Assembly (NCBI RefSeq): GCF_007744515.1
Contig: NZ_CP036268.1
Span: 1,775,712 to 1,839,711, forward strand
Length of the DNA: 64,000 bases
Reading direction: 5' to 3'
Origin: Stratiformator vulcanicus
Lineage (GTDB): Bacteria; Planctomycetota; Planctomycetia; Planctomycetales; Planctomycetaceae
This document shows, in pieces, positions 2,821 through 18,621 of the stretch. The notes beneath the pieces are model-generated. The model was given only the letters and a program-made list of their open reading frames with translations. It did no database searches and was not told the origin of the DNA. The stretch's first letter is position 1; every line of letters starts with the position of its first letter. The position numbers were made by a program, and so were the translations under genes.

Positions 2821-2892
2821 GTTTAGCCGCGCCCGACAGGAAGCGCGCCGGTACGGTTAATTCAGCCACGCTCCCTAACGATCGCGGCTCAA
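2821..2892. repeat. Short inverted-repeat element, family A copy 1
   Basis: This 72-bp element is bounded by imperfect terminal inverted repeats of about 25 bp: left arm starts GTTTAGCCGCGCCCGACAGG, and the right arm read on the minus strand starts GTTGAGCCGCGATCGTTAGG. It fills most of the gap between the membrane protein and the sigma factor gene. The same arm sequence recurs at 3563-3637 and as half copies at 4507-4534 and 15790-15818. No coding capacity. Confidence 0.75.
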
Positions 2893-2917
2893 CGGAAGAC
2901 CTCAATAACGGGGACTC

Positions 2918-3568
2918 ATGCCTTCATCGGAAGCGGATCGATTGCTGGTGGGCCAAGTTCGCACGGGCGATGAACGCGCGTGGGAAGAACTCATCGCGCG
3001 GTTCGAAGGAAGACTGATCGCCTATGTCGATGCGCGGTTGCGAAATCGCTCCCGCAGCGAAGACGTGGTGCAGGAAACCTTCATCGGCTTCCTCACGAGC
3101 CTGCCGAATTACGACGAAGCAACGCCGCTCGATTCGTTTTTATTCTCAATCGCCGCTCACAAGCTGACCGACCTGTTGCGTCGCGAGGGACGCCGGCCGA
3201 CGGTGCCACTATTCGCGAACAGTTCGTGGGGATCGTCGAGCGAACCGGCCGGGCGAGGTCGACGGGCTTCGAGCATGATGCGCTCGCGCGAAGGCAAGGT
3301 CGCCGAGCGGCGGGTCATTGAAGACTGTCTGGCCGACCTGATCATCGGTTGGAAGGGGTCTGGCGACTGGGAGCGGCTCAAGTGCCTGGAGCTTTTGCTT
3401 GTCTCCGGTATGGGAAATAAAGACGTTGCCCGCGAACTCGGGATCACCGAACAGGCCGTGGCGAATCACAAATTTTTCGTCGTTGCAAAATTGAAGGACG
3501 CAGCCGCGAATGCCCGCGTCAGAGATTTCCGCATCGAAGAATATGGCCTGAGCGACACCCACGTTTAG
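2918..3568 (+). CDS. RNA polymerase ECF-type sigma factor
   Basis: The 216-residue protein has a sigma region 2 (about residues 15-90; SRSEDVVQETFIGFLTSLPN, then FLFSIAAHKLTDLLRREGR) and a region 4 helix-turn-helix (about residues 150-200; NKDVARELGITEQAVANHKF). The linker between them is longer and more Ser/Arg-rich than in most ECF factors. It would direct RNA polymerase core to a specific promoter set. No classical anti-sigma gene follows; the upstream neighbours are a membrane Ser/Thr kinase and a membrane protein, consistent with the kinase-linked ECF groups known in planctomycetes (inference). Its TAG stop (3566-3568) lies inside the left arm of the following repeat element. Confidence 0.9.
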   Translation: MPSSEADRLLVGQVRTGDERAWEELIARFEGRLIAYVDARLRNRSRSEDVVQETFIGFLTSLPNYDEATPLDSFLFSIAAHKLTDLLRREGRRPTVPLFANSSWGSSSEPAGRGRRASSMMRSREGKVAERRVIEDCLADLIIGWKGSGDWERLKCLELLLVSGMGNKDVARELGITEQAVANHKFFVVAKLKDAAANARVRDFRIEEYGLSDTHV

Positions 3569-3637
3569 CCCTGAACACGAGGGAGCGCTTCGAACGTGTC
3601 TCGAAATCGGCGCGCTTCCTGACGGTCGCGGCTAAAC
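3563..3637. repeat. Short inverted-repeat element, family A copy 2, supplying two stop codons
   Basis: This 75-bp element has terminal inverted repeats GTTTAGCC...GGGAGCGC / GCGCTTCCTGACGGTCGCGG...CTAAAC. It sits exactly between two convergent genes: the TAG at 3566-3568 in the left arm ends the sigma factor gene, and the TAG read on the minus strand at 3632-3634 in the right arm ends the NUDIX gene. The arms could also form a stem-loop acting as a bidirectional terminator. Confidence 0.8.
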
Positions 3638-4156
3638 GTTGCGGGTAATGAAATAAAGCCCCGCGTAGACCTTCGGGTCGACGAGAAACCCGGAGCGCGA
3701 TTTCTCATCGAGAAATGCGTCGACATCGTCCATCGGCACTTTGTGCACCGTGATGTCTTCGGAATCGTCGCCGCCACCTTCGCCGATTTGGCGAACCCCC
3801 TCGGCTCGGTAAAACGTGATGACTTCACTCGTCAGGCCGGATGAGGCGGGGCCTTCGGTGAGATAGACCATCCGCTCGGCGGTGTGGCCGGTCTCCTCTT
3901 CCAGTTCTCGAATCGCTGTCTGTGCAAGCGACTCGCCTTCGAATTGCGGATCATCGCCCGCCAGTCCCGCGGGGAGTTCGATCGTCCGGCTGCGGATCGG
4001 TTCGCGGTATTGCTCCACTAACAGCAGGCACTCATCGACGACCGCCGCCACGCAGACGATACCCGTGACGTTCTGCCGGGTGACGTACTCCCAGCCGTCG
4101 CGAATGACAAAGCGGAGATGCTTCCCGGCGTGAAGGGTGGTTTCGGAATCGCTCAT
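3632..4156 (-). CDS. NUDIX hydrolase, ADP-ribose pyrophosphatase-like
   Basis: The 174-residue protein carries a NUDIX box: E75, R83-E84-L, E87-E88 and G90 (AIRELEEETG), with the upstream LPAGL loop typical of the ADP-ribose/ADP-sugar pyrophosphatase subgroup. These enzymes cleave nucleoside diphosphate-X compounds, using Mg ions bound by the Glu cluster. Length fits the family. It is the last gene of a minus-strand run: its ATG lies 6 bp after the stop of the 88-residue gene, so the two are likely translated from one message. Exact substrate cannot be read from sequence. Confidence 0.9.
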   Translation of the reverse strand: MSDSETTLHAGKHLRFVIRDGWEYVTRQNVTGIVCVAAVVDECLLLVEQYREPIRSRTIELPAGLAGDDPQFEGESLAQTAIRELEEETGHTAERMVYLTEGPASSGLTSEVITFYRAEGVRQIGEGGGDDSEDITVHKVPMDDVDAFLDEKSRSGFLVDPKVYAGLYFITRNV

Positions 4157-4162
4157 CAGTAT

Positions 4163-4429
4163 CTATTCCGCCTGAGCGAGCCGTTCGCGACCGCGGCGTT
4201 TCGTCTCCTCAATGTCGAGAGGGGCGAAACGACCGGCTCGGAGATCCTCCATGCCCAGTTCGATCTCGGCCTTCAAATCCACGTTATCAAGGTCACCGCA
4301 CTGCTCGCGGAACAGCGCGAGCAGGTCTTCGAGCGAACGGCCTTCAAGATCAACTTCGCTATCGCGAAGAACCATCCCCAGAAACTCACTGAAGTCGGCT
4401 GCTTCGGCTTTCGTGGCGGGAGACGGCAT
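4163..4429 (-). CDS. Small conserved-type protein of unknown function
   Basis: An acidic 88-residue protein, mostly predicted helix, with no Cys cluster or membrane segment. The central LEGRSLEDLLALFREQCGD looks amphipathic, and the C-terminus is charged (ETKRRGRERL). The overall appearance recalls small antitoxin-like or adaptor proteins, but no toxin partner is adjacent: the next gene, 6 bp downstream, is the NUDIX hydrolase. The tight spacing supports that it is a real gene. Function unknown. Confidence 0.7.
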   Translation of the reverse strand: MPSPATKAEAADFSEFLGMVLRDSEVDLEGRSLEDLLALFREQCGDLDNVDLKAEIELGMEDLRAGRFAPLDIEETKRRGRERLAQAE

Positions 4430-4506
4430 GGCGAAATGCTTTCGATCAGGGAATTTGAGTCACTGACAGTATACCGAAGAGGGGTAACGGGAGTGAATGA
4501 GAGATC

Positions 4507-4534
4507 GAGCGCTTCGTTTCGGTCGCGGCTAAAC
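4507..4534 (-). repeat. Half copy of family A repeat arm
   Basis: The minus strand reads GTTTAGCCGCGACCGAAACG and continues to the GAAGCGCTC end of the family A arm. No second arm is evident nearby. It lies between xerC/D and the 88-residue gene. Confidence 0.6.
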
Positions 4535-4556
4535 GTAGGGGCTCGACCCTCGGGAG

Positions 4557-5501
4557 TTATCCACGCGGGTGATGCGCTGAGTGGATCGCTTTGAGTCGGC
4601 TGTGGTCGACGTGGGTGTAGCGCTGGGTCGTGCGGATGCTCGCGTGGCCGAGGATTTCCTGAAGGGCCCGGATCTCCGCTCCGCCGGCGAGCATGTGCGT
4701 TGCGAAACTGTGCCGCAGCGTGTGCGGGCTGACCTTGCTGCTCGCACCGATGCGGGCCGCGTAGCGCTTCACGAGGTTCCAAATCATGATCCGCGTGAGC
4801 GGTCGACCGGAACGCGAGACGAACAGCATTTCGGAGTCAGGCCGGGCGATCGTCGGACGTTCGTGCTTCAGATAGGACTCCAGTGCCGCGCGGGCGACGG
4901 GGTTGAGCGAGACGAGACGTTCCTTGTTGCCCTTGCCGAGCACGCGGCAGAAGTTTTCTTCCAGCCGGACATCTTTTTGGGCCAGACCGATCACCTCCGA
5001 CGTCCGGCAGCCGGTGGCGTACATCAGGCAGAGGATGGCTCGATCACGGAGGTAGTAGCGATCGGTCGGGTCGGGCGCGAGCAGCAGCCGATCGACCTGT
5101 TCGGGGCTGAGAACACTCGGCAGCCGCTGCCACAACTTCGGCGACTCAATCAACTCGGCCGCGCTCTCGGCGACGACCCCTTCGAGCATCAGATACCGAA
5201 AGAACATCCGGATCGAAACCAGATGCCGGGCGATCGAGGTCGCCGACAGTTCCGCGGCGTAGAGGTCGTCGAGATATTCGCCGAGCAATTTCAGCGAGAC
5301 GTCGGACAGGCTCGGCGGGCCATGCTTGGCGAACCAGTCGGCAAACCGTTTCAAGTCGGCGGTATATGCCTTGAGCGTATTGAGCGACATCCCGCATTCG
5401 GCTTCGAGGTAGTGCCGAAAGGGTTCAAGGTGCAGTTCCAGCGACGCGGGACGCCGCGAAAAGAACTTGGAACCGGCGGGAGGGCGTTTACGGGCTGGCA
5501 C
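4557..5501 (-). CDS. Tyrosine recombinase, XerC/XerD family
   Basis: The 314-residue protein has the N-terminal SAM-like core-binding domain (about residues 20-110) and the catalytic domain with all active-site residues: R166 (TGCRTSEV), K193 (GKGNKERL), H260-R263 (SPHTLRHSFATHML), H286 (LGHASIRTT) and the nucleophile Y295. Length and C-terminus match chromosomal XerC/XerD, which act at dif to resolve chromosome dimers. It starts with GTG at 5499-5501; the region just upstream is the inverted repeat at 5503-5650. It lies between pcrA and small genes on the same strand and has no phage context, so it is more likely the housekeeping recombinase than an integrase. Confidence 0.9.
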   Translation of the reverse strand: MPARKRPPAGSKFFSRRPASLELHLEPFRHYLEAECGMSLNTLKAYTADLKRFADWFAKHGPPSLSDVSLKLLGEYLDDLYAAELSATSIARHLVSIRMFFRYLMLEGVVAESAAELIESPKLWQRLPSVLSPEQVDRLLLAPDPTDRYYLRDRAILCLMYATGCRTSEVIGLAQKDVRLEENFCRVLGKGNKERLVSLNPVARAALESYLKHERPTIARPDSEMLFVSRSGRPLTRIMIWNLVKRYAARIGASSKVSPHTLRHSFATHMLAGGAEIRALQEILGHASIRTTQRYTHVDHSRLKAIHSAHHPRG

Positions 5502-5502
5502 G

Positions 5503-5650
5503 GAGCTATCAGCTGTCAGCTATCGGCTGTCAGCTTTTTCCTTGGAAGACCTGAAACAAGAACGCGATCGCCACGTGATGGTGGCCTTCGTCTCATATCG
5601 GTCTTCCGCGCGCGGAGCTGATAGCGGATCGCTGACAGCCGACAGCTAAG
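5503..5650. repeat. Inverted-repeat element, family C, between pcrA and xerC/D
   Basis: The left arm (5503-5537) repeats the motif AGCTATCAGCTGTCAGC and GGCTGTCAGC, and the right arm (5616-5650) is its imperfect reverse complement (GCTGATAGC...GCTGACAGCC). On the minus strand the right arm begins TTAGCTGTCGGCTGTCAGC, whose TAG at 5646-5648 is the stop codon of pcrA. The 78 bp between the arms shows no gene. Confidence 0.7.
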
Positions 5651-8024
5651 GGCGAAGCCCGATCGGTTGGAGCGGGGATTTGTCGGCGACGAAGGTGGCG
5701 CGGTCCTGGCTGTCTTCGAACTCGACGGTGACCCTGCGGTTTCTGGCGAAGCCATCGGTTTCAACGACGATACCGGTTCCGTAGCGCGGATGACGGACCT
5801 TATCGCCAACCGCAAAGCCGGCCCGGAGTTCGGCCTGCTGAGACGTCCCGCCACCCAATAACGCCGCTCCCGTGGTCAACCCGCCGACCTTCGGCTGCCC
5901 TTGCGACGGTTTCGCCTTAGGCGACTCCTCAATTTTTTCGTTGGAGTTTTCTGTTTCTTCGCTCGCATCACCGAACGCAAAGTCGTCGAAGTCAGAGTGG
6001 TTCTCCCACTCCTCTGCTGCCGCAGGCCCCCCCCGTCCGGGGTCGGACACGCGGTCATCGACTTCGAGGTTCATTTCGCTGAGGAACTCGCTCGGTACGG
6101 CGAGCGTGGGTCGCCCGCGGAACTCACGGCGTTCGACATGCGAGAGGGTCAGCTCCTCCATCGCCCGGGTGATGCCCACGAAGAGCAGCCGACGTTCTTC
6201 TTCAAGCTCCATGATGCTGTGGCTCTTGAGCGATCGCTCATGCGGCAACAGCATCTGTTCGACAGCCACCACAAAGACGACCGGGAACTCCAAGCCCTTG
6301 GCCGCGTGCAGCGTCATGAGCGTGACCTTGCCGGCCTCTTCATCGACGGTGTCGGTCTCGTTGGTGAGGCTCGTCTGCTCGAGGAAGCCGGGTAGCGAAC
6401 CCTCTTCACCCGCTTCGCGATCGTATTCGCAGGCGGCGGTCAAAAGTTCTTCGACATTCGCCAGTCGCTGCATCGACTCTTCCGAGTCCTCGTTTTTCAG
6501 CTCTTCGGCGTAGCCGGTTTGGTCGAGGACCTGCTTCATCAACTCGCCGACCGGTCCCTCGGCATGTTCGTCGAGGGCGTCGATCAGCGCCCCAAACTTC
6601 TTGACGGACGTCGCGGCGCGTTTGCTGAGCGACTTGATCTGCTCGGCGTGCCGGGAGGCTTCGACCGCGTCGACGCGCTGCTCCTCGGCCCATGAGGTGA
6701 CCCGCTGCTGCGTCTTATCGCCGATCGCCCGCTTGGGTTTGTTGACGATCCGGCGAAAGGCGACGACGTCATCAGGATTAGCGATCAGCCGCAGGTAGCC
6801 GAGGACGTCTTTCACTTCGGCCCGGTCATAGAACGCCGTGCCCGCGGCGACTTGATACGGGATTTTTTGCCGGCCGAGCGCGCGTTCGATCTCACGCGAC
6901 AGAGCGTTGACGCGGTAGAAAATCGCAATGTCCGAATACGGCCGCCCCTCTTCGCGATGAGCGTCGACGATTCGTTCGGCGATGGCCTCGGCTTCGGCTT
7001 TACCGTCGCGGAGTCGCATTCGCGTCACGTCGCGACCGTCGTCATTTTGCGTGCGGAGGACCTTCTTCTTGCGATGGACATTGTGGGCGATCAAGTCGTC
7101 GGCCGCCTTGAGAATCGACTTCGTGCTGCGGAAGTTGTCTTCGAGGCGGATCGTCGTTGCGTCGGGATAATCGCGTTCGAATTTGAGAATGTTCTCGATC
7201 TTCGCGCCGCGCCAGCCGTAGATCGACTGGTCGGGGTCGCCGGTCACGCAGACGTGGGGTTCGTCCTGTGCGAGCGCTCGCACGATCGTGTACTGGGCGG
7301 TGTTGGTGTCCTGGTATTCGTCGACCAGAACGAATTTGAAGCGGTTGTCGAGGTCTGAGCGAATCTCTTCATTTTCCGACAGCAGCATCACGACGTGCAG
7401 CAGGAGGTCGTCGAAATCAACGGCATTGGCATCGAGGAGCGCTCGCTGATAGGCGGGGTAGACCTTCGCCGTGACCGACTGCATGTGATCGCCGACGCGG
7501 TCATTGAACTGCCGGGCATACGTCTCGGCGGTAATCATCGCGTTCTTGGCGTGGCCGATCTGATGGAGCAGCTTGCGGGGCGAATAGTGGGTCGCGTCGA
7601 TGTCGAGATCGCGCAGCACCTGCTTCATGAGCTGCTGTTGATCGGCGGTGTCGTAGATCGAAAAGTTCGTCTTCAGGCCTACGGCTTCGGGGCGTTTTCG
7701 CAGCAGCCGCGCACAAAAGCGGTGAAACGTACTCACCCAGACATACGCCCCGGGCAGCAGTTGCTGGACCCGCGTGCCCATCTCGCCGGCGGCCTTGTTG
7801 GTGAATGTGATCGCGAGAATTTCGCGCGGATCGACGCCACGCTCGACCAGGCGGGCGATGCGGCGGGTGATGACGCGCGTCTTGCCCGAGCCGGGTCCGG
7901 CGAGAACGAGCAGCGGTCCCTCGAAGTGTTCGACGGCGGCGTTTTGCGGTTCGGTCAGGTCATTCGCACCTGAGCCCGCCACCGCTGCGTCCGCGGCGTC
8001 GAAGCCGTTATCAGAGTTTTTCAT
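5646..8024 (-). CDS. pcrA: ATP-dependent 3'-5' DNA helicase PcrA/UvrD
   Basis: The 792-residue superfamily 1 helicase has the Q-motif (LTEPQNAAV), Walker A (AGPGSGKTRV, residues 42-51), motif Ia (ITFTNKAAGEM), Walker B (VDEYQDTN), motif III (GDPDQSIYGWRGA), motif IV (LEDNFRST), motif V (TLHAAKGLEFPVVF) and motif VI (LLFVGITRAMEEL). The C-terminus (GDKVRHPRYGTGIVVET) is the small Tudor-like RNA polymerase-interaction domain typical of PcrA/UvrD. Roles are nucleotide excision repair, replication-fork clearing and removal of RecA. Length is slightly above the usual 720-750 because of an acidic Ser/Glu-rich linker before the Tudor-like domain. Its stop codon lies in the repeat at 5503-5650. Confidence 0.96.
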   Translation of the reverse strand: MKNSDNGFDAADAAVAGSGANDLTEPQNAAVEHFEGPLLVLAGPGSGKTRVITRRIARLVERGVDPREILAITFTNKAAGEMGTRVQQLLPGAYVWVSTFHRFCARLLRKRPEAVGLKTNFSIYDTADQQQLMKQVLRDLDIDATHYSPRKLLHQIGHAKNAMITAETYARQFNDRVGDHMQSVTAKVYPAYQRALLDANAVDFDDLLLHVVMLLSENEEIRSDLDNRFKFVLVDEYQDTNTAQYTIVRALAQDEPHVCVTGDPDQSIYGWRGAKIENILKFERDYPDATTIRLEDNFRSTKSILKAADDLIAHNVHRKKKVLRTQNDDGRDVTRMRLRDGKAEAEAIAERIVDAHREEGRPYSDIAIFYRVNALSREIERALGRQKIPYQVAAGTAFYDRAEVKDVLGYLRLIANPDDVVAFRRIVNKPKRAIGDKTQQRVTSWAEEQRVDAVEASRHAEQIKSLSKRAATSVKKFGALIDALDEHAEGPVGELMKQVLDQTGYAEELKNEDSEESMQRLANVEELLTAACEYDREAGEEGSLPGFLEQTSLTNETDTVDEEAGKVTLMTLHAAKGLEFPVVFVVAVEQMLLPHERSLKSHSIMELEEERRLLFVGITRAMEELTLSHVERREFRGRPTLAVPSEFLSEMNLEVDDRVSDPGRGGPAAAEEWENHSDFDDFAFGDASEETENSNEKIEESPKAKPSQGQPKVGGLTTGAALLGGGTSQQAELRAGFAVGDKVRHPRYGTGIVVETDGFARNRRVTVEFEDSQDRATFVADKSPLQPIGLRP

Positions 8025-8419
8025 CGGTCCCTATTACTCCGCACTCCGTCGCGGGCCGGCGAAAACCGCTCGATTTCGACCCGATTTCGCTCAGCCTACC
8101 GGGAGTGAGGAGGTGCCGACCAGCGCACCACGCCGGGATGTCGCTCGCGACGGGGCGTCCCCCCATATTGATCGTCCGCTGTCAAATTGATTGCGACGGA
8201 CGTATCGACGCTATACCGTGTTACGTCTGGGAGGTTTAAGTGGAATGGGGGGCGTGAAGCGGCCGAGTCGCATTGCTTAGTCTGCGAAGACTCTCCGTGC
8301 GAACTTCTTCGCGACCAACCCATACTGCCCAGTCGATAGTTTTTAACACATGATGAACCGGTCTGTCTCATTGCTGAGGCAGTCGATCTTCAAGTCCAGC
8401 GCCGCAAGAGAGTCAATCG
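8025..8419. other. Divergent intergenic region (395 bp), no gene seen
   Basis: This gap separates pcrA (-) from the exported protein gene (+) and must hold both promoters. I see no convincing ORF, tRNA or hairpin. A weak sigma-70-like pair exists on + (TTGATT at 8187-8192, then a TATACC near 8212), but its 19-bp spacing is poor, so I do not call it as a promoter. Confidence 0.4.
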
Positions 8420-10621
8420 ATGTCAGACACACTGACGCATTCTTCACGAGCCCGACGCGCGTCGGGGTGGGTCGCCGTCTTTTCGCTGGTAACCGCCTCC
8501 TGGCTGCTCAACGGCGCGTCCACCGCGTTCGCCCAGCAGTCGGAGCTCGGACTCGATGGTCTGCTGCCCGGATTCGTGCCGGCTGAGATCGACGAAGAAG
8601 CCTGGTTCCGGTTGGGAGACGACTCCTCTGACTTCGCGCAAGCTTCCTATGAAGACGTTGTGGGGCTCTACAACGTCTCGGGCAAGTCGGTGTCCGACCA
8701 GCGGGCAGCGATCGGAAATCTACGCGATCGCCTTGAGCTGCTCTCAGAGCGGGCAGCACAAACCGATGATCCGAGTGAGCGCGCCGCGATTCATTCGCTG
8801 GCAGGCCCACTCGCCCGACGGGTCGACGTCGCCGAAGCTGTGCTCAATTCGCTGGAGCAGCCGGTGACCGGCGAACCGATTTCTCAACTGGAGAAAGCGA
8901 AAATCGCGGTTCGACGCGACATCGCGGCGGCGCGAAAGAAGTTGGATTCGATCACCGGTGGTTCTGCGTGGGTCGACTATCTGCAACTCGATGCGGCCGA
9001 ATCGGCCTTATCGGGTGAGTTCGATGTCGAGCCGATCGAAACGCTTTCCAACCGATTGAGCGTCGACAATTCTCAGAACGACGCCCAAGCCGCCTTTATG
9101 AACAAAGCCGTGCTTCGCGAGTTGAAGGCATCCGCCGAGCGCTTGACCGCCGCGGCTGCCGTTCCTGCTGCGCCGAAGAATGATGCCGAAGAGAATGACG
9201 GCCAATCGGCATTGCGTGACGCATTGGGTGATTTCATCCAAGCGACGGAGGACTACGAGAATGAAATCAATTCGACCACCGGGCAGGCTTTGCACGACGC
9301 GATCGAGCGTGTTGACGAACTTTCTCCGGCTGCCGCAGACTCGTTGGCCGATGTCGTGAAATCGAATTATATGGCGTCGAACGTCCACGCGGTCGTCGGT
9401 GAAGAATTTCTGCGAAAGTTGATCCGCACGAACCGGGTCGATTCGGGGCGGGTCGTCGACTACGTCGCCGGTGCGAACGTGCGGGGTAACCAGACAACCA
9501 ACTCCCGGACCGGTATCTCGCTCATTCCGTCTCGCGGGAAGGCGCGCTTCGCGATCACGCTGGATGGAACCGTGAACAGCCGCACGAACGGCTATACGAA
9601 GCAAGCAACGATTGCTTCAGTCGGGTCTCACGACTTTCACGCGCGTAAGACGCTGACATTTGACGGCAACGGCATTTCATTCGGTGCCGCGTCGATCGAT
9701 GTCAAACCGAGTGTCCGCAACGTCGGGGCGCGGACCAGATTTGACTGGCTCCTCGGAGGTATCGCACGTCGGCAAGCTTTGCGAACGGCGAACAGCCGAC
9801 GGGGGATCGCGCTAGGACATGCCAAGATGCGTGTCCGCCAGCGGGTCTTGCCGCCATTTGAAGATGGAGTCCGAGACTCATTTTCCGACTTCGGCAATGT
9901 CACCGATCGGCTCGCCGACGCCGGTCTCCGGCAGACGCGAACCTATGTCGAGTCGACCTCATCAGAGGTCCTCCTCTCCGATCGGATCGTCGATGCTGAC
10001 GGCCCTGTCGTGGGCGGCTTCCGGAGTCCGACTCCGGCGACGAGTTCATCGGAAATTACATTCCGCCTGCACGAAAGCGTGCTAACCGCTTCCGCGGCGA
10101 ATTGGGATGTCGCGGGGCAGGAACTGACGTCGGATGAATTCGCCGGCAAGCTGGAGGAATGGCTGGAAGGACTGCTCGGTCGGGAAGTCTCACTGAGCGA
10201 CAACGAGCCTCCGACACCGTCGGACGCCTCTGAAGAGAGCGACCCGTCGGTCTACGTGTTTAATGACACGAACCCAGTCTCGTTCCGGATTCAAAATGGA
10301 TCGGTCGAACTGATTCTGCGTGTCGGCATCGTCCAGGAAGACGGTGACATTCCGCCGCAGCTCGTGACCGTTCCGCTTACGCCGAAGGTCGAAGGGGAGA
10401 CTCTGATGATCGAGCGGGGAGACGTCTCGGTCGTACCGCTGCCGGGGCAACAGGCGCAGATCGCTCGGGCTCGCGTGATGATCAAAAAGATCGAAGACAC
10501 GATCGAACCGTCCGAACGTTCGGCCGCGCTCACCGTCGATCGAGACAACGCTTCGGACGTGAAGGTCTACGTGACCGAAATCGACGCCACGGACGGCTGG
10601 TTGACGGTGACCGCCAGATAA
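8420..10621 (+). CDS. Large exported protein of unknown function
   Basis: The 733-residue product starts with a Sec signal peptide (basic start, hydrophobic WVAVFSLVTASWLLNGAST, cleavage after AFA-QQ near residue 38). Mature residues about 60-330 are Ala/Glu/Lys-rich and predicted helical, likely coiled coil. Residues about 340-560 are richer in Thr/Ser/Gly and beta-like, with repeated RxxTNSRxG patterns. The C-terminal part is acidic and ends in a small beta-domain. I recognise no catalytic motif. Only planctomycete-type secreted proteins come to mind, and location is periplasmic or cell surface. It is followed by a terminator, so it is probably monocistronic. Confidence 0.8.
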   Translation: MSDTLTHSSRARRASGWVAVFSLVTASWLLNGASTAFAQQSELGLDGLLPGFVPAEIDEEAWFRLGDDSSDFAQASYEDVVGLYNVSGKSVSDQRAAIGNLRDRLELLSERAAQTDDPSERAAIHSLAGPLARRVDVAEAVLNSLEQPVTGEPISQLEKAKIAVRRDIAAARKKLDSITGGSAWVDYLQLDAAESALSGEFDVEPIETLSNRLSVDNSQNDAQAAFMNKAVLRELKASAERLTAAAAVPAAPKNDAEENDGQSALRDALGDFIQATEDYENEINSTTGQALHDAIERVDELSPAAADSLADVVKSNYMASNVHAVVGEEFLRKLIRTNRVDSGRVVDYVAGANVRGNQTTNSRTGISLIPSRGKARFAITLDGTVNSRTNGYTKQATIASVGSHDFHARKTLTFDGNGISFGAASIDVKPSVRNVGARTRFDWLLGGIARRQALRTANSRRGIALGHAKMRVRQRVLPPFEDGVRDSFSDFGNVTDRLADAGLRQTRTYVESTSSEVLLSDRIVDADGPVVGGFRSPTPATSSSEITFRLHESVLTASAANWDVAGQELTSDEFAGKLEEWLEGLLGREVSLSDNEPPTPSDASEESDPSVYVFNDTNPVSFRIQNGSVELILRVGIVQEDGDIPPQLVTVPLTPKVEGETLMIERGDVSVVPLPGQQAQIARARVMIKKIEDTIEPSERSAALTVDRDNASDVKVYVTEIDATDGWLTVTAR

Positions 10622-10953
10622 TTCCGACCGATGGCCCCGCGCCGGACGATAAGCTGGCCTCATTCAGTCAGAGCCCACGTTTTCGGAAGCGTGGGTTCTT
10701 TCTTGCGCTTTTCGAATTCGCGTGTTTTGCAATGAAAGATCGCAAATCCGTCAGTGCTTGTGGCCCCGCGTCACCGACGACGTCTCGCTGCCCGCCTGAA
10801 GGAATGTTCTGCTCATTTGCCCCATAAACTCGATCGAACGTTGACCGCAGCGGGTTTGAACCTCACGATAGGTTCATCTCTCAGGAAACGGGGCGAGGTC
10901 GAGCGCAAGACCGTCGTCGCTGTCCGGAACTCTCCGGAGAAAGGAAGTGGCTT
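10622..10953. other. Intergenic region (332 bp) with terminator
   Basis: It contains the hairpin terminator at 10673-10705 and otherwise no ORF, RNA gene or repeat that I can support. The promoter of the downstream exported beta-propeller gene must lie here; a purine-rich AGGAAGTGG just before its ATG serves as ribosome binding site. Confidence 0.4.
10673..10705 (+). terminator. Rho-independent terminator after the exported protein gene
   Basis: The stem CCCACG (10674-10679) pairs with CGTGGG (10690-10695) around a 10-base loop, followed by the T-rich run TTCTTTCTT. It lies about 50 bp after the stop. Confidence 0.65.
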
Positions 10954-11970
10954 ATGCGGCGGTCGCAGACGGGACGAGCGATTGGGTTTCTGTTCGCCGC
11001 ACTACCGATGCTGCTCCAACTTCCTTCGCTTGCTCACGCTCAGGTAGACGACCGGCCAGCCGCGCACGGGTCCCATACCCTGCAGATTGATGCCAAGCCG
11101 ACCGTCCGAAAGTTGGCGAGCCGATTGACTCTTCCGCGTCGCGTCGAAGCCGCGCCCGACGGGACAGCGCTCGTCGTCGATTCAACGCTCGGAACGTTGA
11201 CCCGTTTCACGACGGAAGGTACCGCGACGGTCATTGCCGCGGACATCCTCGAACCGACCGGCGTCGCCGCCTACGGACGTGACGAGATTCTCGTCACGGA
11301 GTTCGCATCGGGGATGCTCGGTGCTGGAGCCCTGTTGCTGATCAACGCCGAGGGTGAGTTGTTCGTCCACGCGGCGGGACTGCCCGGACCGGTCGACGTG
11401 ACCGTCGCCCCGGACGGAACACCTTTCGTCGCGTGTTTGGACGGAACGGTCGCCCGGATCGGGCCGGACGGAAGCTGGACGACGATTGCCTCGGGATTGC
11501 CACAGCCATCGGCGATTACGGTCGATCCGGTCGGCCGACTACTCATCGCGAGCACGATCGACGGCAGCATCCGACAGATCTCGACATCGGGCGAATTGGA
11601 GTTGCTGCGTGAAGGACTTCGTGACCCGGTCGACCTGGCCGTCGATTCGGAAGGACATCTGATCGTGGCCTGCGAGGTCGGGAATGAATTACTCTACATC
11701 GACGGATCGGGGGGCAAGCGGACATTCGCCCACGTCCCCACCGGAACGTCATCAATCGCGTTTGATAAGCACGACAACATCTACCTCGTCAATACCGAGC
11801 GGCATACGCTCCTGCGAGTGGTGATCAACGTGTTCGTCGATTGCCCGCACTGCGGGGACCGTCTGAAGCTGCAATTTCGCCGGCCCGGCGGCCTCGCGAA
11901 GCCGAAACCCGCTTCTGAGCCGGACCCCGGCACGATTGCCGACGCAATCGCTGAAGGACCGGTGACGTAA
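10954..11970 (+). CDS. Exported NHL/SMP-30-like beta-propeller protein with C-terminal Cys motif
   Basis: This 338-residue protein has a signal peptide (AIGFLFAALPMLLQLPSLAHA, cleavage near residue 29). The mature part consists of repeated blades with the pattern (P)xxVDxTVAPDGTPFVA, ITVDPVGRLLIAS, LAVDSEGHLIVA and IAFDKHDNIYLVN, typical of NHL or SMP-30/gluconolactonase-like propellers. After the last blade comes CPHCGDRLKLQF (near residue 295), half of a zinc-ribbon or thioredoxin-like CxxC, and a Pro-rich tail. Such propellers bind ligands or act as lactonases; no catalytic metal ligands can be assigned with confidence here. Its AGGAAGTGG ribosome binding site supports the ATG chosen. Confidence 0.8.
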   Translation: MRRSQTGRAIGFLFAALPMLLQLPSLAHAQVDDRPAAHGSHTLQIDAKPTVRKLASRLTLPRRVEAAPDGTALVVDSTLGTLTRFTTEGTATVIAADILEPTGVAAYGRDEILVTEFASGMLGAGALLLINAEGELFVHAAGLPGPVDVTVAPDGTPFVACLDGTVARIGPDGSWTTIASGLPQPSAITVDPVGRLLIASTIDGSIRQISTSGELELLREGLRDPVDLAVDSEGHLIVACEVGNELLYIDGSGGKRTFAHVPTGTSSIAFDKHDNIYLVNTERHTLLRVVINVFVDCPHCGDRLKLQFRRPGGLAKPKPASEPDPGTIADAIAEGPVT

Positions 11971-12102
11971 GGGTAAGGGTAAGGGCTATTGTTCGACGCG
12001 ACTGTTTGCGGGCGCCCTGACGCCGATATTGCGGTCCAGATGATCGCTCTCGGATCGCAGTTGACCGACCCGCGCGATTTTGCGACAAGCTCTGCCCCGT
12101 AG

Positions 12103-13338
12103 ATGAATGGGGTGCGCAATTCCCGAAAATGTCGCCTTCCCGCGGCGGCAGTGCACCCGTACCCGCGACCCAGCAGCACAGGATTGAACGTGGACGTCGC
12201 CCTGCTGTGTGCGGCTGCGCTGTTGGCAGCGCCGCCGGATACGGAGTCGGACGGTTCGTTTTCGTCGTATCACTTCGCCGAAGGATACGATGAGGTCGTA
12301 CGCGCCCAGTCTCCGTTTTACGACGAACTCCCCCCGCCGGGCGGAGATTTCGGCAATCCCCCAACGACGTTCGACCCCGGTGGCATCCCGCCGTCGAATG
12401 GTCCGGGCTTTCCCGCTCAACCTCCGCCGACGGGTCCCTACAACGGCGATCCGTTCGCCGCGCCGGGCGGAACGTTCGGAGCGCCGGTTCCGCAATACGG
12501 ATCGGGTGGGTCGTTCTACACTTATGGCACAAACGGCCCGCAGCCGTATCGGCCGGGCTACTCTTTCGATTTCGACGCCGGCTACCTGTTCGATTCGGGG
12601 GCGTCTTCCCCGTACGGTTCTCTTGCGATCACCGAATTCGACCTCGAACTGGCAAATACGAAAATTTTCGGAAACGGCACCGCATTCACCTTCGCGAACG
12701 AGTTCGACGTCCGGCTGTTCGACGGTCCGACATCACCGAATTTGGGCGTGTTTAACGGAGTTCCCGCCGACGTTTACCGCTTCGGCTGGGACTTCGTGCT
12801 CGACGTCCCCGTTGCTCCCCAGTGGAGCGCCCAATTGGCCTTCAACCCGTCGATCAACACCGACTTTGGAAACGGACTGTCGCGCGAAGCGTTCCAGTTC
12901 GACGGTCGCGGTGTCTTGTTCTATCAGGCTTCGCCGCAATTTACGTTCGCCGGCGGTGTGGGCTATTGGGACCGGCTCGACGACATGATCATTCCCTACG
13001 GCGGTATCATCTGGACGCCGAACGACCGGTGGGAAATTCGGGCCCTGTTCCCGAAGTCCCGAATCACGTACTTTGCCGGTCACATGTGGGGAAAACCAAC
13101 ATGGATTTATGCGGACATCGAATACAACGTGGAGAGTTGGGAAGTCGAACGCGGCGGTCGACGTGATCAGATGCAAATGGAAGACGTCCGCCTGGTTCTC
13201 GGTGCTCGCAAAGATCAGGGCTGGGGCACAACCTTCATTGAAGGCGGATACGTCTTTAATCGCGAATTCGACTTTAAGCGCGGTGGCGGCTTCGGCGTCG
13301 ACGACGGTGCCATCATCCGCGGCGGCATTCGTTTCTAA
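12103..13338 (+). CDS. Outer-membrane beta-barrel-like protein (DUF6268-like)
   Basis: The 411-residue ORF has a hydrophobic export-like segment (VDVALLCAAALLAAPP) only after about 28 residues, so the true start may be TTG 12184 or GTG 12190. A low-complexity Pro/Gly/Phe linker (residues about 60-150) is followed by alternating amphipathic strands rich in Phe, Tyr, Trp and Asp, ending in GAIIRGGIRF with a terminal Phe, as outer-membrane barrels do. Motifs such as FAGGVGYWDRLDD and PYGGIIWTPNDRWEIRALFP match my memory of a family of planctomycete outer-membrane proteins (DUF6268). Role unknown; possibly a porin or surface channel. Confidence 0.75.
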   Translation: MNGVRNSRKCRLPAAAVHPYPRPSSTGLNVDVALLCAAALLAAPPDTESDGSFSSYHFAEGYDEVVRAQSPFYDELPPPGGDFGNPPTTFDPGGIPPSNGPGFPAQPPPTGPYNGDPFAAPGGTFGAPVPQYGSGGSFYTYGTNGPQPYRPGYSFDFDAGYLFDSGASSPYGSLAITEFDLELANTKIFGNGTAFTFANEFDVRLFDGPTSPNLGVFNGVPADVYRFGWDFVLDVPVAPQWSAQLAFNPSINTDFGNGLSREAFQFDGRGVLFYQASPQFTFAGGVGYWDRLDDMIIPYGGIIWTPNDRWEIRALFPKSRITYFAGHMWGKPTWIYADIEYNVESWEVERGGRRDQMQMEDVRLVLGARKDQGWGTTFIEGGYVFNREFDFKRGGGFGVDDGAIIRGGIRF

Positions 13339-14225: not shown

Positions 14226-14636
14226 TTACTCCTCCTCGCGCTGCTCGCGCGTCGCTACTCCTCGGAGAGCAATCGCCGTTGATGTCGCGTACTCCTTGGA
14301 ATGCGAAATGGAGATCGCGATCTCGGCGATGCCGAGCTTCAAGGCGAACTCTTTCGTGCCGCCGTGCAGTACGAGTTTCGGTGCGCCGCTTTTCAGGTTC
14401 ACTACTTCCACCTCGGTCCAGCGAATGCCCTTGATGAATCCGGTGCCGAGGGCCTTCATTGCAGCTTCTTTGGCAGCCCAACGGCCGGCGTAATTCTGGG
14501 CCGAGTTTTTATGCCGGTCGCAATAGGCCCGCTCACCGTCGGTGAAGGTTCGCTCCAAAAAGTGCTCCCCGTGCCGCTCGATCATCTCGGCGATCCGCTG
14601 CACTTCGACAATATCAGTTCCGAGTCCGGCGAACAT
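14226..14636 (-). CDS. acpS: Holo-[acyl-carrier-protein] synthase
   Basis: This 136-residue enzyme transfers 4'-phosphopantetheine from CoA to apo-ACP, activating fatty-acid synthesis. The family signatures are GLGTDIVEVQRI (Mg-binding Asp8), FTDGERAYC, and RWAAKEAAMKALGTG with the second metal-binding Glu. SISHSKEYA is the conserved C-terminal strand. Length is at the usual 120-130 range plus an acidic tail. It is convergent with glmU and shows no operon partner. Identification is firm. Confidence 0.93.
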   Translation of the reverse strand: MFAGLGTDIVEVQRIAEMIERHGEHFLERTFTDGERAYCDRHKNSAQNYAGRWAAKEAAMKALGTGFIKGIRWTEVEVVNLKSGAPKLVLHGGTKEFALKLGIAEIAISISHSKEYATSTAIALRGVATREQREEE

Positions 14637-14639
14637 TTT

Positions 14640-14720
14640 TTGAAAGGTGAGGGGTTAGAGGTGAGTGGTGAGTGGTTTGAATCAATGGGTGGCCCGGACC
14701 CTACAGGTCCGGGTCGCAGA
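14640..14720. repeat. Low-complexity repeats and hairpin in the acpS upstream gap
   Basis: A run of direct GAGTGGT/GAGGGGT-like repeats (14647-14680) precedes a perfect hairpin CCCGGACC...GGTCCGGG (about 14693-14714). The gap to the next gene (14637-14890) holds nothing else that I can identify; the promoter of acpS must lie in or near it. Confidence 0.5.
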
Positions 14721-14890
14721 GCGACAAGAGGTCTTGGTTGGGTGTTGATTGCTTCAGCCACGGTCACGGGATTTTGTGGTGACTTCTTCCGTCGTTCAAC
14801 CAATAGCGTCATGCTGGCCACGGAGCGAACCTTTGCCGACGTTCGGAGTCTAATCGAGAATCCCCCGCCGCCACGACTCGCGGATGCCCC

Positions 14891-15604
14891 ATGTCTTTCG
14901 ATCTTCTCGAGCAATTCAACCCATCTCCAGAGCCGCTACATCGGCTCGTGGTGCAGCATACCGATTCGGAGATGCTGCGGGAAATCGCGAGGGCGGACTA
15001 TGGGATGGATGCTGATGCCCACCTAAAGGCATTGCGTCGGATCGCGAAGGGCGAGATTCTCGCACCGATGGAGTGGGAGCCGTTAGAGGTTCTTCAACTA
15101 ATCCGTTACTCCGTCCCCGAAGATCGCACATGGTCTCCCGGCGGTCACGGTGAGCGTGGGCACTGGATGCGATTATTCTGTTGTACTGCGCTCATCCGCG
15201 CCGATGTCGAGCCGGACAACGACGGTTACGACTTGGGAAGCGATTGCTCGGTCATTCAGTTGATCGATAGTGCACTCAAACTCGGTCCCCAAACATCGGA
15301 CGCGGCCTTGCGTCTCTTATTATGGCGACTGACTCGTGCCGAGGGAGACCTCTATCGAGAACCGATTTATGCTCTCGGTTCCCTGATGTTGATAATCGTT
15401 AAAAACCAAGAAAGTCCGGCTGCTTGGCACTTCCTTATCTCGCTCGTCGAGAACGAGGACTATCCGCTCAACTCTGTAATTGAGTCGTTCTTCTACAAGC
15501 GACAATGGAAATCCTACGTTCGCGCTCACTTGCTCGGCTCGAAAGATGACCTCGTCGACCTTCTCGCCCGGGAACTCCTGCGTCACGAAATTGTCGAAAG
15601 CTGA
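14891..15604 (+). CDS. Soluble protein of unknown function
   Basis: A 237-residue, helix-rich acidic protein without signal peptide, membrane segment or recognised motif. It contains several Trp residues, and its helical repeat pattern (LLLWRLTRAEGD, ALGSLMLIIVKN, WHFLISLVENED) is HEAT- or immunity-protein-like. Codon use is more AT-tolerant than its neighbours (TTA and ATA codons appear). The gene is isolated, lies between two repeat-rich gaps, and could be a recent acquisition. Function unknown; I am fairly sure it is a real gene because the frame is intact and the protein looks globular. Confidence 0.65.
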   Translation: MSFDLLEQFNPSPEPLHRLVVQHTDSEMLREIARADYGMDADAHLKALRRIAKGEILAPMEWEPLEVLQLIRYSVPEDRTWSPGGHGERGHWMRLFCCTALIRADVEPDNDGYDLGSDCSVIQLIDSALKLGPQTSDAALRLLLWRLTRAEGDLYREPIYALGSLMLIIVKNQESPAAWHFLISLVENEDYPLNSVIESFFYKRQWKSYVRAHLLGSKDDLVDLLARELLRHEIVES

Positions 15605-15626: not shown

Positions 15627-15771
15627 GGCGGGGTGCGTGTCGCCCCCGCATCAGGATGTTCGCGTTTTACTTGCACCCTTTCCACCCTCGGCAGGTTTTG
15701 AGGTTGGAGTTGATATGGTGCAAGATGGTCACGAATCGAACACTGCGGGGGCGACACGCCCCCGGCACCCC
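15627..15771. repeat. 145-bp inverted-repeat element, family E
   Basis: The left arm (15627-15650, containing GTGCGTGTCGCCCCCGCA) and the right arm (15744-15771, containing TGCGGGGGCGACACGCCCCC) are near-perfect reverse complements of about 24 bp. The 93 bp between shows no gene. It looks like a MITE or a large stem-loop. Confidence 0.7.
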
Positions 15772-15789: not shown

Positions 15790-15818
15790 TTTAGCCGCGA
15801 CCGTTAGGGAGCGCTCGA
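15790..15818 (+). repeat. Half copy of family A repeat arm, supplying the end of trpS
   Basis: TTTTAGCCGCGACCGTTAGG followed by GAGCGCTCG is the family A arm. The trpS stop codon (TAA, read on minus at 15804-15806) and its last residues (Ser-Ala-Pro) lie inside it. Confidence 0.65.
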
Positions 15819-16790
15819 TCGTTTCTTAAACCCCACCGCCGACCGTACGCGATCCAATACCTCCGCTCCCTTCGCCCGCGCCTTTTCCGCACCGGCTCGC
15901 AGGACATCTTCAACCGTATCGAGGTCTTCCTCTAGTTCCTGTCGCTTCTCGAACGCCGGGCCGAAGTAGTCCATCGCCGCTTCGTAGAGAGTTTGCTTGG
16001 CGTCGCCGTAACCCATGCCGCCGGCGCGGTAGCGCTCGGCGAGGGCGGCCTGCTGTTGGTCGTCGGCGAACAGCTTGTAAAGGGTGAAGACTGAGTCGCC
16101 TTCGGGCTCCTTGGGGTCTTCAACCGGGGTGGAGTCGGTCTTGATCGCCATGATCTTCTTGCGGAGTTTCTTAGGCGTCGGCTCGAAAATATCGATCGTG
16201 TTGCCGTAGCTCTTGGACATCTTCTCGCCGTCGGTGCCGACGACCTTGCCGGTGGCCTCGACGACGTGCGCCTTGGGCAGCACAAGTGTTTCGCCGTAGA
16301 TGTGATTGAACCGCGCGGCGAGGTCGCGTGTGATCTCGATGTGCTGTACCTGATCGGCCCCGACGGGCACGGTGTCGGAGTCGTACAGCAGAATGTCAGC
16401 CGCCTGCAAAATGGGATAGGTGTAGAGGCCCGCATCGGCGGGGAGGCCGCGGTCCTTCTTCTCTTTGAACGAGTGGCCCTTGTCGAGCAGGTGCATCTGC
16501 GTGATCGTCAGCAGAGCCCAGTATAACTCCGTGATCTCCGGCACGTCCGACTGCCGAAACAGCACCGCCTGATTCGGATCGAGACCCAGCGATAAAAGAT
16601 CAATCGCCGCGTCGCGACTGAACCCGGCGAGGGTTTCCGGTTCGCCGCGGATGGTGGTCATCGCGTGCAGGTCGGCGATGAAATAGAAGGCCTGCTCGGC
16701 GGTCTGCAGTTCAATGTACTGCTTGATCGCGCCGAAGTAGTTGCCCCAGTGAAAACGGCCGGTGGGCTGGATGCCGGAGAGGACTTTCAT
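15804..16790 (-). CDS. trpS: Tryptophanyl-tRNA synthetase
   Basis: This 328-residue class I aminoacyl-tRNA synthetase charges tRNA-Trp. The HIGH-like motif is HWGN (residues 14-17, in [16 protein letters not shown]) and the KMSKS loop is residues 190-194 ([16 protein letters not shown]). The [20 protein letters not shown] and GADQVQH segments are the family tryptophan/ATP pocket. Length is normal for bacterial TrpRS. The final residues and stop codon fall in the repeat arm at 15790-15818, so the C-terminus may have been altered by insertion, beyond the conserved core. Confidence 0.95.
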
Positions 16791-16838: not shown

Positions 16839-17468
16839 TCAAATGCGGCGACCGCGCAGCGGATTCTGGTCGAGCCAATGGTAAATCAGTTCTTCAACGT
16901 CCCGGAACGTCGGCTCGTCTTCGTCAACGGATAGCTTTCTCGCAAGCTTTACCCATTGTTTCCGAAACGCTTCATACCGCGAAATTATCCGACGGGCGCT
17001 GGGAAGTCGACGTTGGCTGAAAGTGTTCAGCCAATTCCGGATCTGTGTGACCGCCCGGTTCGGATCGTCGTCATGTGCTCGGATGTCCTGACCCGAAATA
17101 TCCGATAGAAATTGCTGGAAACGATACCTCTCCGTATCGAGTATCAGGCAATTCTTGCTATCTTGGGGAGGTGCCCCGAACCACTTCGCGCCGAGAAACA
17201 TTCCGAGTTCGAGCGGCATATTGAAGCGAGGAAATCCAGAAATCGCATCCATTTGAACGCGCGAAATATCGTGGATCGCGAACTGCGAAGTCCCGATCAG
17301 GTCTCTAATTTTATGGACCCGGATCTGGCTGCTGTCTTCGTCTTCGAGAGCACAGCGGGGGCGAAAGCCGCAGTCGTAGATTGCGAAGAGAATTGCATCA
17401 AAGATCGGACGATAGTCAGCATCAAAAGGACAGTTCACGAAGATGTTCGTCTCATATTGGCCGCTCAC
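16839..17468 (-). CDS. TIR/deoxyribosyltransferase-like nucleotide-processing protein (putative)
   Basis: The 209-residue protein starts with a beta-strand NIFVNCPFD (residues 8-16) followed by helix YRPIFDAILFAIYDCGF, strand RPRCALE, the helix-strand pair VHKIRDLIGTSQFAIHDISR (51-70) and the FNMPLELGMFLGAK block (82-95, Glu87). This order and the Glu in an N-x-P-x-E-L-G context recall TIR domains and nucleoside 2-deoxyribosyltransferases, where the equivalent Glu is catalytic. A second half (SDISGQDIRAH, then a charged helical tail) is family-specific. It starts with GTG overlapping the TGA of the 54-residue gene (GTGA). I recognise this as a recurrent bacterial family without assigned function; NAD or nucleoside cleavage is inference. 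Confidence 0.7.
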   Translation of the reverse strand: MSGQYETNIFVNCPFDADYRPIFDAILFAIYDCGFRPRCALEDEDSSQIRVHKIRDLIGTSQFAIHDISRVQMDAISGFPRFNMPLELGMFLGAKWFGAPPQDSKNCLILDTERYRFQQFLSDISGQDIRAHDDDPNRAVTQIRNWLNTFSQRRLPSARRIISRYEAFRKQWVKLARKLSVDEDEPTFRDVEELIYHWLDQNPLRGRRI

Positions 17469-17629
17469 TTCTTCGCAATCCGACGTTTAGCTTGTCTGCT
17501 GTTGCCTGCCTCCGATCGACTCTCCGAAATAACCTGACGGACCGCTTCACGAGCTTGGGCGCGCGTGAAGCTCTTCGGCCGTCCGAGCGGCTTGAGTAGG
17601 ATCCGATATTCTTTCGATTTCGTTGGCAT
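17465..17629 (-). CDS. Small basic protein, translationally coupled to the TIR-like gene
   Basis: The 54-residue ORF starts at ATG (17627-17629), and its TGA (17465-17467) overlaps the GTG of the downstream gene. A purine-poor leader (GTGGGACAACTT) precedes the ATG. The product is strongly basic (MPTKSKEYRILLKPLGRPKS, then a helix FTRAQAREAVRQVI and a RQAKRRIAKK tail), with the GRPKS stretch resembling an AT-hook-like or DNA/RNA-binding segment. It may bind nucleic acid or sense a trigger for its partner. It is too short for motif certainty; the overlap is the main support that it is translated. Confidence 0.6.
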   Translation of the reverse strand: MPTKSKEYRILLKPLGRPKSFTRAQAREAVRQVISESRSEAGNSRQAKRRIAKK

Positions 17630-17676
17630 AAGTTGTCCCACCCTTGATGAAATTAATTGAGAGACATGCCTTCATT

Positions 17677-18621
17677 CTACCCGCGCGGCGTCCCGGCTTG
17701 AACCGCGGTCTTGGCCGGGCCGAGGGTTCCGACGAATTGTGTGACGTCGTCGCAATCGGCCTCTACAACGATCGCCTCAAGTTGCGCCGTCAGATCGGAA
17801 GACAGCCCCGGCTTGTAGAAGTTCGCGGTTCCGACCTGCACGGCGGTAGCCCCGGCGACGAGGAACTCCATCACGTCGTCGATCGACTGAATGCCCCCGA
17901 TACCGATGATCGGGACATCAACGGCCTGAGCCACCTGCCACACGATCCGCAAAGCCAGCGGTTTGATCGCTGGTCCGGACAGGCCGCCGATGCCGTTGCC
18001 GAGGATCGGTTGCCGGCGGCGCCAGTCGATCGCCATGCCCTGAAAGGTGTTGATTAGCGAAACCGCATCGGCCCCCGCTTCGGCCGCTGCCTGAGCGATA
18101 ACGGGGACGCTCGTGACGTTTGGCGTCAGTTTGGCAATCACCGGGAACGGACAGGCATCGACGACGCCGCGAACGACAGCCGCGGCCTTGTCCGGATCGG
18201 TCCCGTAGTCGACACCGCCACTGACGTTCGGGCAGGAAATGTTGAGTTCGAGGGCCGCGATCCCATCGAACTCGGCCAATCGCGATGCCATCGCCACGAA
18301 CTCGGCTTCGTTCTTTCCGGCGATGTTGACGATCAGAGCCGTCGGCAATCCGGTCAGATACTCAAGATGCTTTTGGATGAAAGCGTCGAGCCCGTCGTTG
18401 TCGAGGCCGATCGAGTTCAACAGGCCCGACGGTGTCTCAACGGTCCGCGGCGGCGGATTGCCCGCGCGTGGAAGCGGGGTGACAGTCTTAGGAATCACGC
18501 CGCCGATCTTGGAGAAGTCGACGAACTCAGCCATTTCCCGCGCGTAGCCGAATGTTCCCGATGCGACCAGGATCGGATTCGACAGCGTAAGCCGATTCAA
18601 ACGGACGGAAAGTCGGCTCAT
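17677..18621 (-). CDS. pyrD: Dihydroorotate dehydrogenase, class 1B-like
   Basis: The 314-residue flavoprotein oxidises dihydroorotate to orotate in pyrimidine synthesis. I place the start at the ATG 18619-18621 ([16 protein letters not shown]), because upstream in-frame sequence is repeat-like and runs into the tRNA. Family motifs are [36 protein letters not shown] with the catalytic Cys (class 1 enzymes use Cys), [19 protein letters not shown], and [19 protein letters not shown] for the FMN phosphate site. Class 1B enzymes pair with an iron-sulfur PyrK; no pyrK lies in this window, so the electron partner is encoded elsewhere or absent. Confidence 0.93.

Follow-up and report, generated by a model that had tools for sequence, protein, structure and literature searches.

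Between the genes pyrD and trpS of the planctomycete Stratiformator vulcanicus lies a two-gene cassette that probably encodes a TIR-family NAD+-consuming N-glycosidase, with an active site like that of CAP12/TIR-STING proteins, controlled by a small protein translated together with it. The cassette stands on the minus strand of the window, the whole stretch of 64,000 nucleotides that was analysed. An initial annotation had described there a 54-residue and a 209-residue open reading frame joined by a GTGA overlap and placed between trpS and pyrD, and all of this is confirmed. The small partner gene (17465..17629, stop included) codes for a very basic protein of 54 aa with the motif RILLKPLGRPKSFTRAQAREAVRQV and a predicted C-terminal helix; an alternative GTG start at 17641 would give 58 aa. 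The effector gene (16839..17468, 209 aa) begins with a GTG at 17468, and the stop/start overlap GTGA at 17465..17468, read straight from the sequence, suggests translational coupling. Upstream of the insertion site is pyrD (17677..18621) and downstream is trpS (15804..16790), both outside the cassette and separated from it by 47-48 nt; all genes are co-directional on the minus strand. The GC content is 53% in the cassette and about 58-62% in its flanks, and the effector is present as a single copy in its 5.2-Mb genome. The further statement that the pair adjoins repeat-rich DNA is weak, as the clearest inverted repeats, at 15628-15766 and at 14537-14841, lie beyond trpS. The first of them, a 23-nt repeat that is 91% complementary, is found between trpS and acpS, where a 237-aa open reading frame also occupies the opposite strand (14891-15604, plus strand). 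A scan for sigma-70 promoters found no site and is uninformative as a test. Judged by comparison with their relatives, the 54-aa and 209-aa frames are both real coding sequences; the 209-aa protein has 19 relatives at 31-54% identity among one-per-species genomes, and the partner genes of close relatives display a dN/dS of about 0.12-0.46.

The AlphaFold model of the 209-aa protein is confident (pLDDT 89.4, pTM 0.88). It shows a parallel-sheet TIR-type fold which ends in a short helical tail, with E87 at the start of a predicted helix (residues 85-97). The TIR or deoxyribosyltransferase class that had been proposed from the sequence can be assigned confidently from this model and its structural matches, while the sequence signature narrows it to a TIR of the CAP12/Pycsar type. 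Among the TIR domains, the top matches come from SPARTA (Z 11.5 across 148 residues), from RUN1, which is a plant resistance protein (10.9), from SfSTING (10.6) and from AbTir (10.4). Nucleotide N-glycosidases match the model about equally, DNPH1 with Z 11.4 and MilB with Z 10.6; the fold alone cannot tell TIR from DNPH1/MilB, whereas the sequence can, modestly. When the effector family is compared by hhalign with families gathered from the same phylum, the alignment to CAP12/Pycsar TIRs reaches E 4.9e-5 (76 columns, with a probability of only 68%), as against 0.32 for nucleoside deoxyribosyltransferases (NDT), 0.14 for TIR_2 and 0.047 for DUF4062. The part that aligns with the CAP12 TIRs is the block R-x-N-x3-E, situated where helix C starts. 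This pattern is found in 58/58 relatives of the effector and in 7/7 CAP12/Pycsar-type TIR domains, and in none of 34 other sequences (0/10 NDT, 0/12 TIR_2, 0/12 DUF4062), which bears out the early choice of the glutamate block FNMPLELG as the likely active site. In the window it reads RFNMPLE (17208..17228, minus strand), and its R81, N83 and E87 are the counterparts of R78, N80 and the catalytic E84 of SfSTING, a TIR-STING NADase (PMC9402430). Because of the pattern and of this correspondence the effector is predicted to be a TIR NADase; the signature speaks for a TIR of the CAP12/Pycsar type more than for a deoxyribosyltransferase, and NAD+ cleavage appears to be its most likely chemistry. 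Two further family motifs are IHDIS (residues 65-69, 17262..17276) and SDISGQD (residues 122-128, 17085..17105), both on the minus strand. Resemblance to the Pfam family of these effectors, PF10137, is faint: the window protein has no hit at the gathering cut-off of 24.7 bits, 6 of 20 members match weakly (best 0.0038), a plasmid member gives E 7.7e-4, and two members score 16.5-16.7 bits, below the cut-off. Neither PF05014 (NDT) nor DUF4062 gives a Pfam hit to the family. The genome of the window contains 15 matches to TIR_2, several of them grouped, for example in C1:415943-438274.

The family has no name, and it looks like a relative of known bacterial immune NADases. The window's two proteins have no match in Pfam, NCBIfam or PADLOC, in agreement with the original remark that the pair matches no nameable system. 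PHROGs gives a single chance-level match, searches of PDB sequences give no match to either protein, and a profile search of the same sequences gives chance hits only. None of the other members checked is found in PADLOC or NCBIfam at E 0.01, and the effector family matches no PADLOC defence model. Phage and viral collections yielded no relatives; the best viral match carries a CAP12/Pycsar TIR annotation. The 19 relatives belong to Poribacteria, Planctomycetota, Pseudomonadota, Verrucomicrobiota, Acidobacteriota and Bacteroidota, with one unplaced MAG, and copies or fragments are carried by 17 plasmids. Distribution is patchy: 6/392 genomes in the window's phylum and 7/150 in its family have matches, as do 8/398 in the phylum that includes Lysobacter and 26/296 in that of Hymenobacter. 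The share is 1.5-9% across the groups surveyed, with up to four matches in one genome. Several copies are broken, either split or with stops. Broken effectors are seen at L025, L026, L063, L220 and L221, the small partner gene being still intact in L025 and L026. The cassette is a conserved, mobile two-gene unit in many bacterial phyla.

Its place in the genome is more stable in the window's own family. Six genomes (the window's, G435, G401, G406, G457 and G474) have it exactly between pyrD and trpS, and these two genes are directly adjacent, with no cassette, in most of the cassette-free family genomes examined. Even within one genus the situation differs, G435 having the cassette and G361 lacking it. 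Since the tree test does not reject a common clade of all six effectors (p 0.43), one old insertion followed by losses is possible; repeated use of the site is a possible alternative. Another genome of the family, G455, has its copy in a different neighbourhood, and with modest support this copy falls in another part of the tree. The picture of a lone accessory cassette has thus to be revised: with a site shared by six family genomes, it is not a free-standing recent insertion. The pyrD gene was considered as a functional partner and rejected, as the junction exists empty and neither pyrD nor trpS is found near the cassettes checked outside the family. The link to pyrD is seen as incidental because, in most of the family's genomes that were checked, the two flanking genes adjoin each other and the cassette is missing. 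These facts bear on a quite unlikely explanation, according to which the effector would be a housekeeping or salvage enzyme, a nucleotide N-glycosidase or deoxyribosyltransferase of the DNPH1-MilB type tied to pyrimidine metabolism via pyrD. Its structural matches to DNPH1 and MilB and its orientation, co-directional with pyrD in the window and five relatives, would suit such a role, and it shares the overall fold and the ELG helix with the PF05014 proteins. However, besides the empty junctions and the absence of pyrD and trpS elsewhere, a cassette present in so small a share of genomes argues against it, as do the lack of R-x-N-x3-E in every NDT sequence checked and the lack of profile similarity to that family.

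Relatives had been expected to keep a small upstream gene, and a small same-strand open reading frame does lie directly upstream of 52 of the 58 distinct effectors; these frames, of at least 40 aa, were picked by hand, so that a few may be spurious. The six exceptions comprise three effectors with a C-terminal FGE domain, two from Poribacteria which have no partner, and one preceded by a canonical TIR protein directly upstream, in the small partner's place (L018, 5444-6579, an Acidobacteria MAG). Partners are mainly of two kinds. Most, the window's included, are very basic, with a median pI of 11.6, and have in common a strand-like segment, VLKP, and after it IxxAVxxV in a C-terminal helix motif. 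In the window's partner the GRPKS motif noticed at the start is present as LGRPKSF, and its model displays little beyond one helix (residues 23-53, pLDDT 72). A profile trained exclusively on non-planctomycete partners finds this protein with 24.6 bits, none of 1000 shuffles being as good. Most other planctomycete partners likewise outscore nearly all their own shuffles, with L028 marginal (11/1000) and L029 not significant (60/1000). A tblastn search with the 54-aa protein gave no hit on plasmids, as expected with so short a query. The second kind is DUF2188 (PF09954), at 16/58 loci, two of them checked with Pfam (E as low as 9e-25) and the others judged by eye; we found no relevant published function for this domain. 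Fifteen of the 16 go with one effector clade (support 100/99). The outlier beyond that clade, L012, continues after its DUF2188 domain with a tail like the basic-type helix, which the profile does not confirm (246/1000 shuffles). Other arrangements are seen here and there. At L042 (190-2221) the order is an Mrr-like gene, a partner resembling GIY-YIG (E 1.9e-4, slightly short of the Pfam cut-off) and the effector; at L072 the partner (ORF ending at 1505) looks like a small membrane protein that has a single transmembrane segment; and on a conjugative plasmid of Sphingomonas (L049, 6974-8470) the effector is followed after 3 nt by a gene for a restriction endonuclease.

In our reading the partner would bind the effector and control it. 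A small gene that comes first, overlaps the effector gene and is translationally coupled to it is also what is seen in toxin-antitoxin modules. The cassette could accordingly be a plain addiction module. The effector would then be the toxin, and the small protein would act as antitoxin and perhaps also repress its own gene; the module would mainly serve to be maintained on mobile elements, not to defend against phages. The plasmid copies agree with this view, as do the two loci where the small gene has outlived a broken effector. Yet the partners are unusually varied, and at some loci their place is taken by an FGE domain or by a complete TIR protein, a pattern more in keeping with sensors than with antitoxins; the two Poribacteria copies, moreover, have no partner at all. 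We consider the addiction module unlikely.

The three effectors where a sensor-like FGE domain is fused at the C-terminus in place of the small partner include L092 (G1124:C30:42000-55835). Its positions 2823-12705 hold a complete diversity-generating retroelement (DGR) with two NACHT-FGE targets, and the effector-FGE fusion sits inside this locus, between the two NACHT-FGE proteins. Mismatches between the template (6385-6512) and the variable regions of these proteins are all at adenines (12/12 and 19/19). For the fusion itself the role of a present DGR target is not supported, with just 17/41 mismatches at template adenines. NACHT/CLec DGR loci have been proposed as antigen sensors (PMC10907252). 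The N-termini of the two NACHT-FGE proteins were read as DUF4062; in the one scanned with Pfam, NACHT and FGE are confirmed and DUF4062 has no score. Experiments have shown DUF4062, known as Swarozyc, to be a TIR-like NADase of immunity (preprint, PMC13174449). Like the present family, Swarozyc is a divergent TIR-like group with a broad and patchy distribution, and at L092 the effector adjoins proteins of this apparent kind and shares their C-terminal FGE. By contrast, the two have no sequence-profile similarity in the hhalign comparison, and in Swarozyc a single protein also contains the sensor domain.

Other known systems resemble the cassette in part. With the CAP12/TIR-STING and Pycsar TIR effectors it has in common the TIR fold, the R-x-N-x3-E block and the profile similarity. 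It differs from them in remaining below the Pfam cut-off, in its stand-alone effector, which has no STING, transmembrane or other cyclic-nucleotide sensor domain, and in a partner that is a small upstream protein, not a cyclase; PADLOC hits to no CBASS or Pycsar cyclase gene were obtained when 123 genes neighbouring 15 cassettes were searched, and the annotated plasmid loci show none either. SPARTA TIR-APAZ is the best structural match, and there too the TIR is an NADase worked by a partner protein, whereas the cassette has neither an Argonaute gene nor an APAZ domain and its partner has about 50-130 aa (54 in the window). Thoeris differs in its ThsA (SIR2-SLOG) gene, none of which adjoins the cassette; the window's neighbours are pyrD and trpS. 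A signalling TIR of the Thoeris sort, whose cyclic ADP-ribose-type product is the signal to a separate effector, would have the same fold and NADase-type active site. But a second effector gene, be it ThsA-like or of another kind, is not conserved beside the cassette and the downstream genes differ by locus, and such a function seems highly improbable.

Does the cassette serve immunity? In favour we count the fold and active site of immune NADases, the patchiness, the plasmids, and the FGE fusion within a DGR locus. Against it stands the steady home beside housekeeping genes in the window's family, and also the genomic context elsewhere. Enrichment in defence islands had been anticipated; when 5.5 kb around 15 cassettes were compared with 15 control regions, most of them at a distance of some 200 kb, defence genes were not in excess, in a small sample whose controls happened to include CBASS and R-M islands, and the neighbours of these cassettes were mostly housekeeping genes. 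This result would also suit the addiction module considered above. Because the comparison of 15 loci gave no enrichment, immunity is deduced from fold, active site, patchiness and fusions.

In the mechanism that we prefer, an NADase and its controller, the co-translated partner would hold the effector in check or trigger it. Upon a signal, which would most likely come from an infecting phage or some other foreign element, the effector would be freed or assembled, and would then hydrolyse NAD+, whereupon growth would stop. Here we infer the NADase activity, the physical binding of the partner, the trigger and the anti-phage purpose. To be sure, the equally good fold match to DNPH1/MilB, the modest probability of the CAP12 profile alignment and the lack of a match to any defence model and of relatives in phage and viral collections speak against this mechanism. 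It is tentatively conceivable that the cassette represents a widespread immune system without a name, in which one family of TIR NADases works under swappable small proteins (basic helix, DUF2188, occasionally GIY-YIG-like or membrane) or a fused FGE sensor, and what is sensed depends on the partner rather than on the effector. If so, it would add a compact, cross-phylum TIR family missed by the defence catalogue searched (PADLOC), and would provide the first testable role for DUF2188 and for a set of overlooked proteins of about 55 aa. The swapped partners would then form a natural set in which to see how small proteins control TIR NADases.
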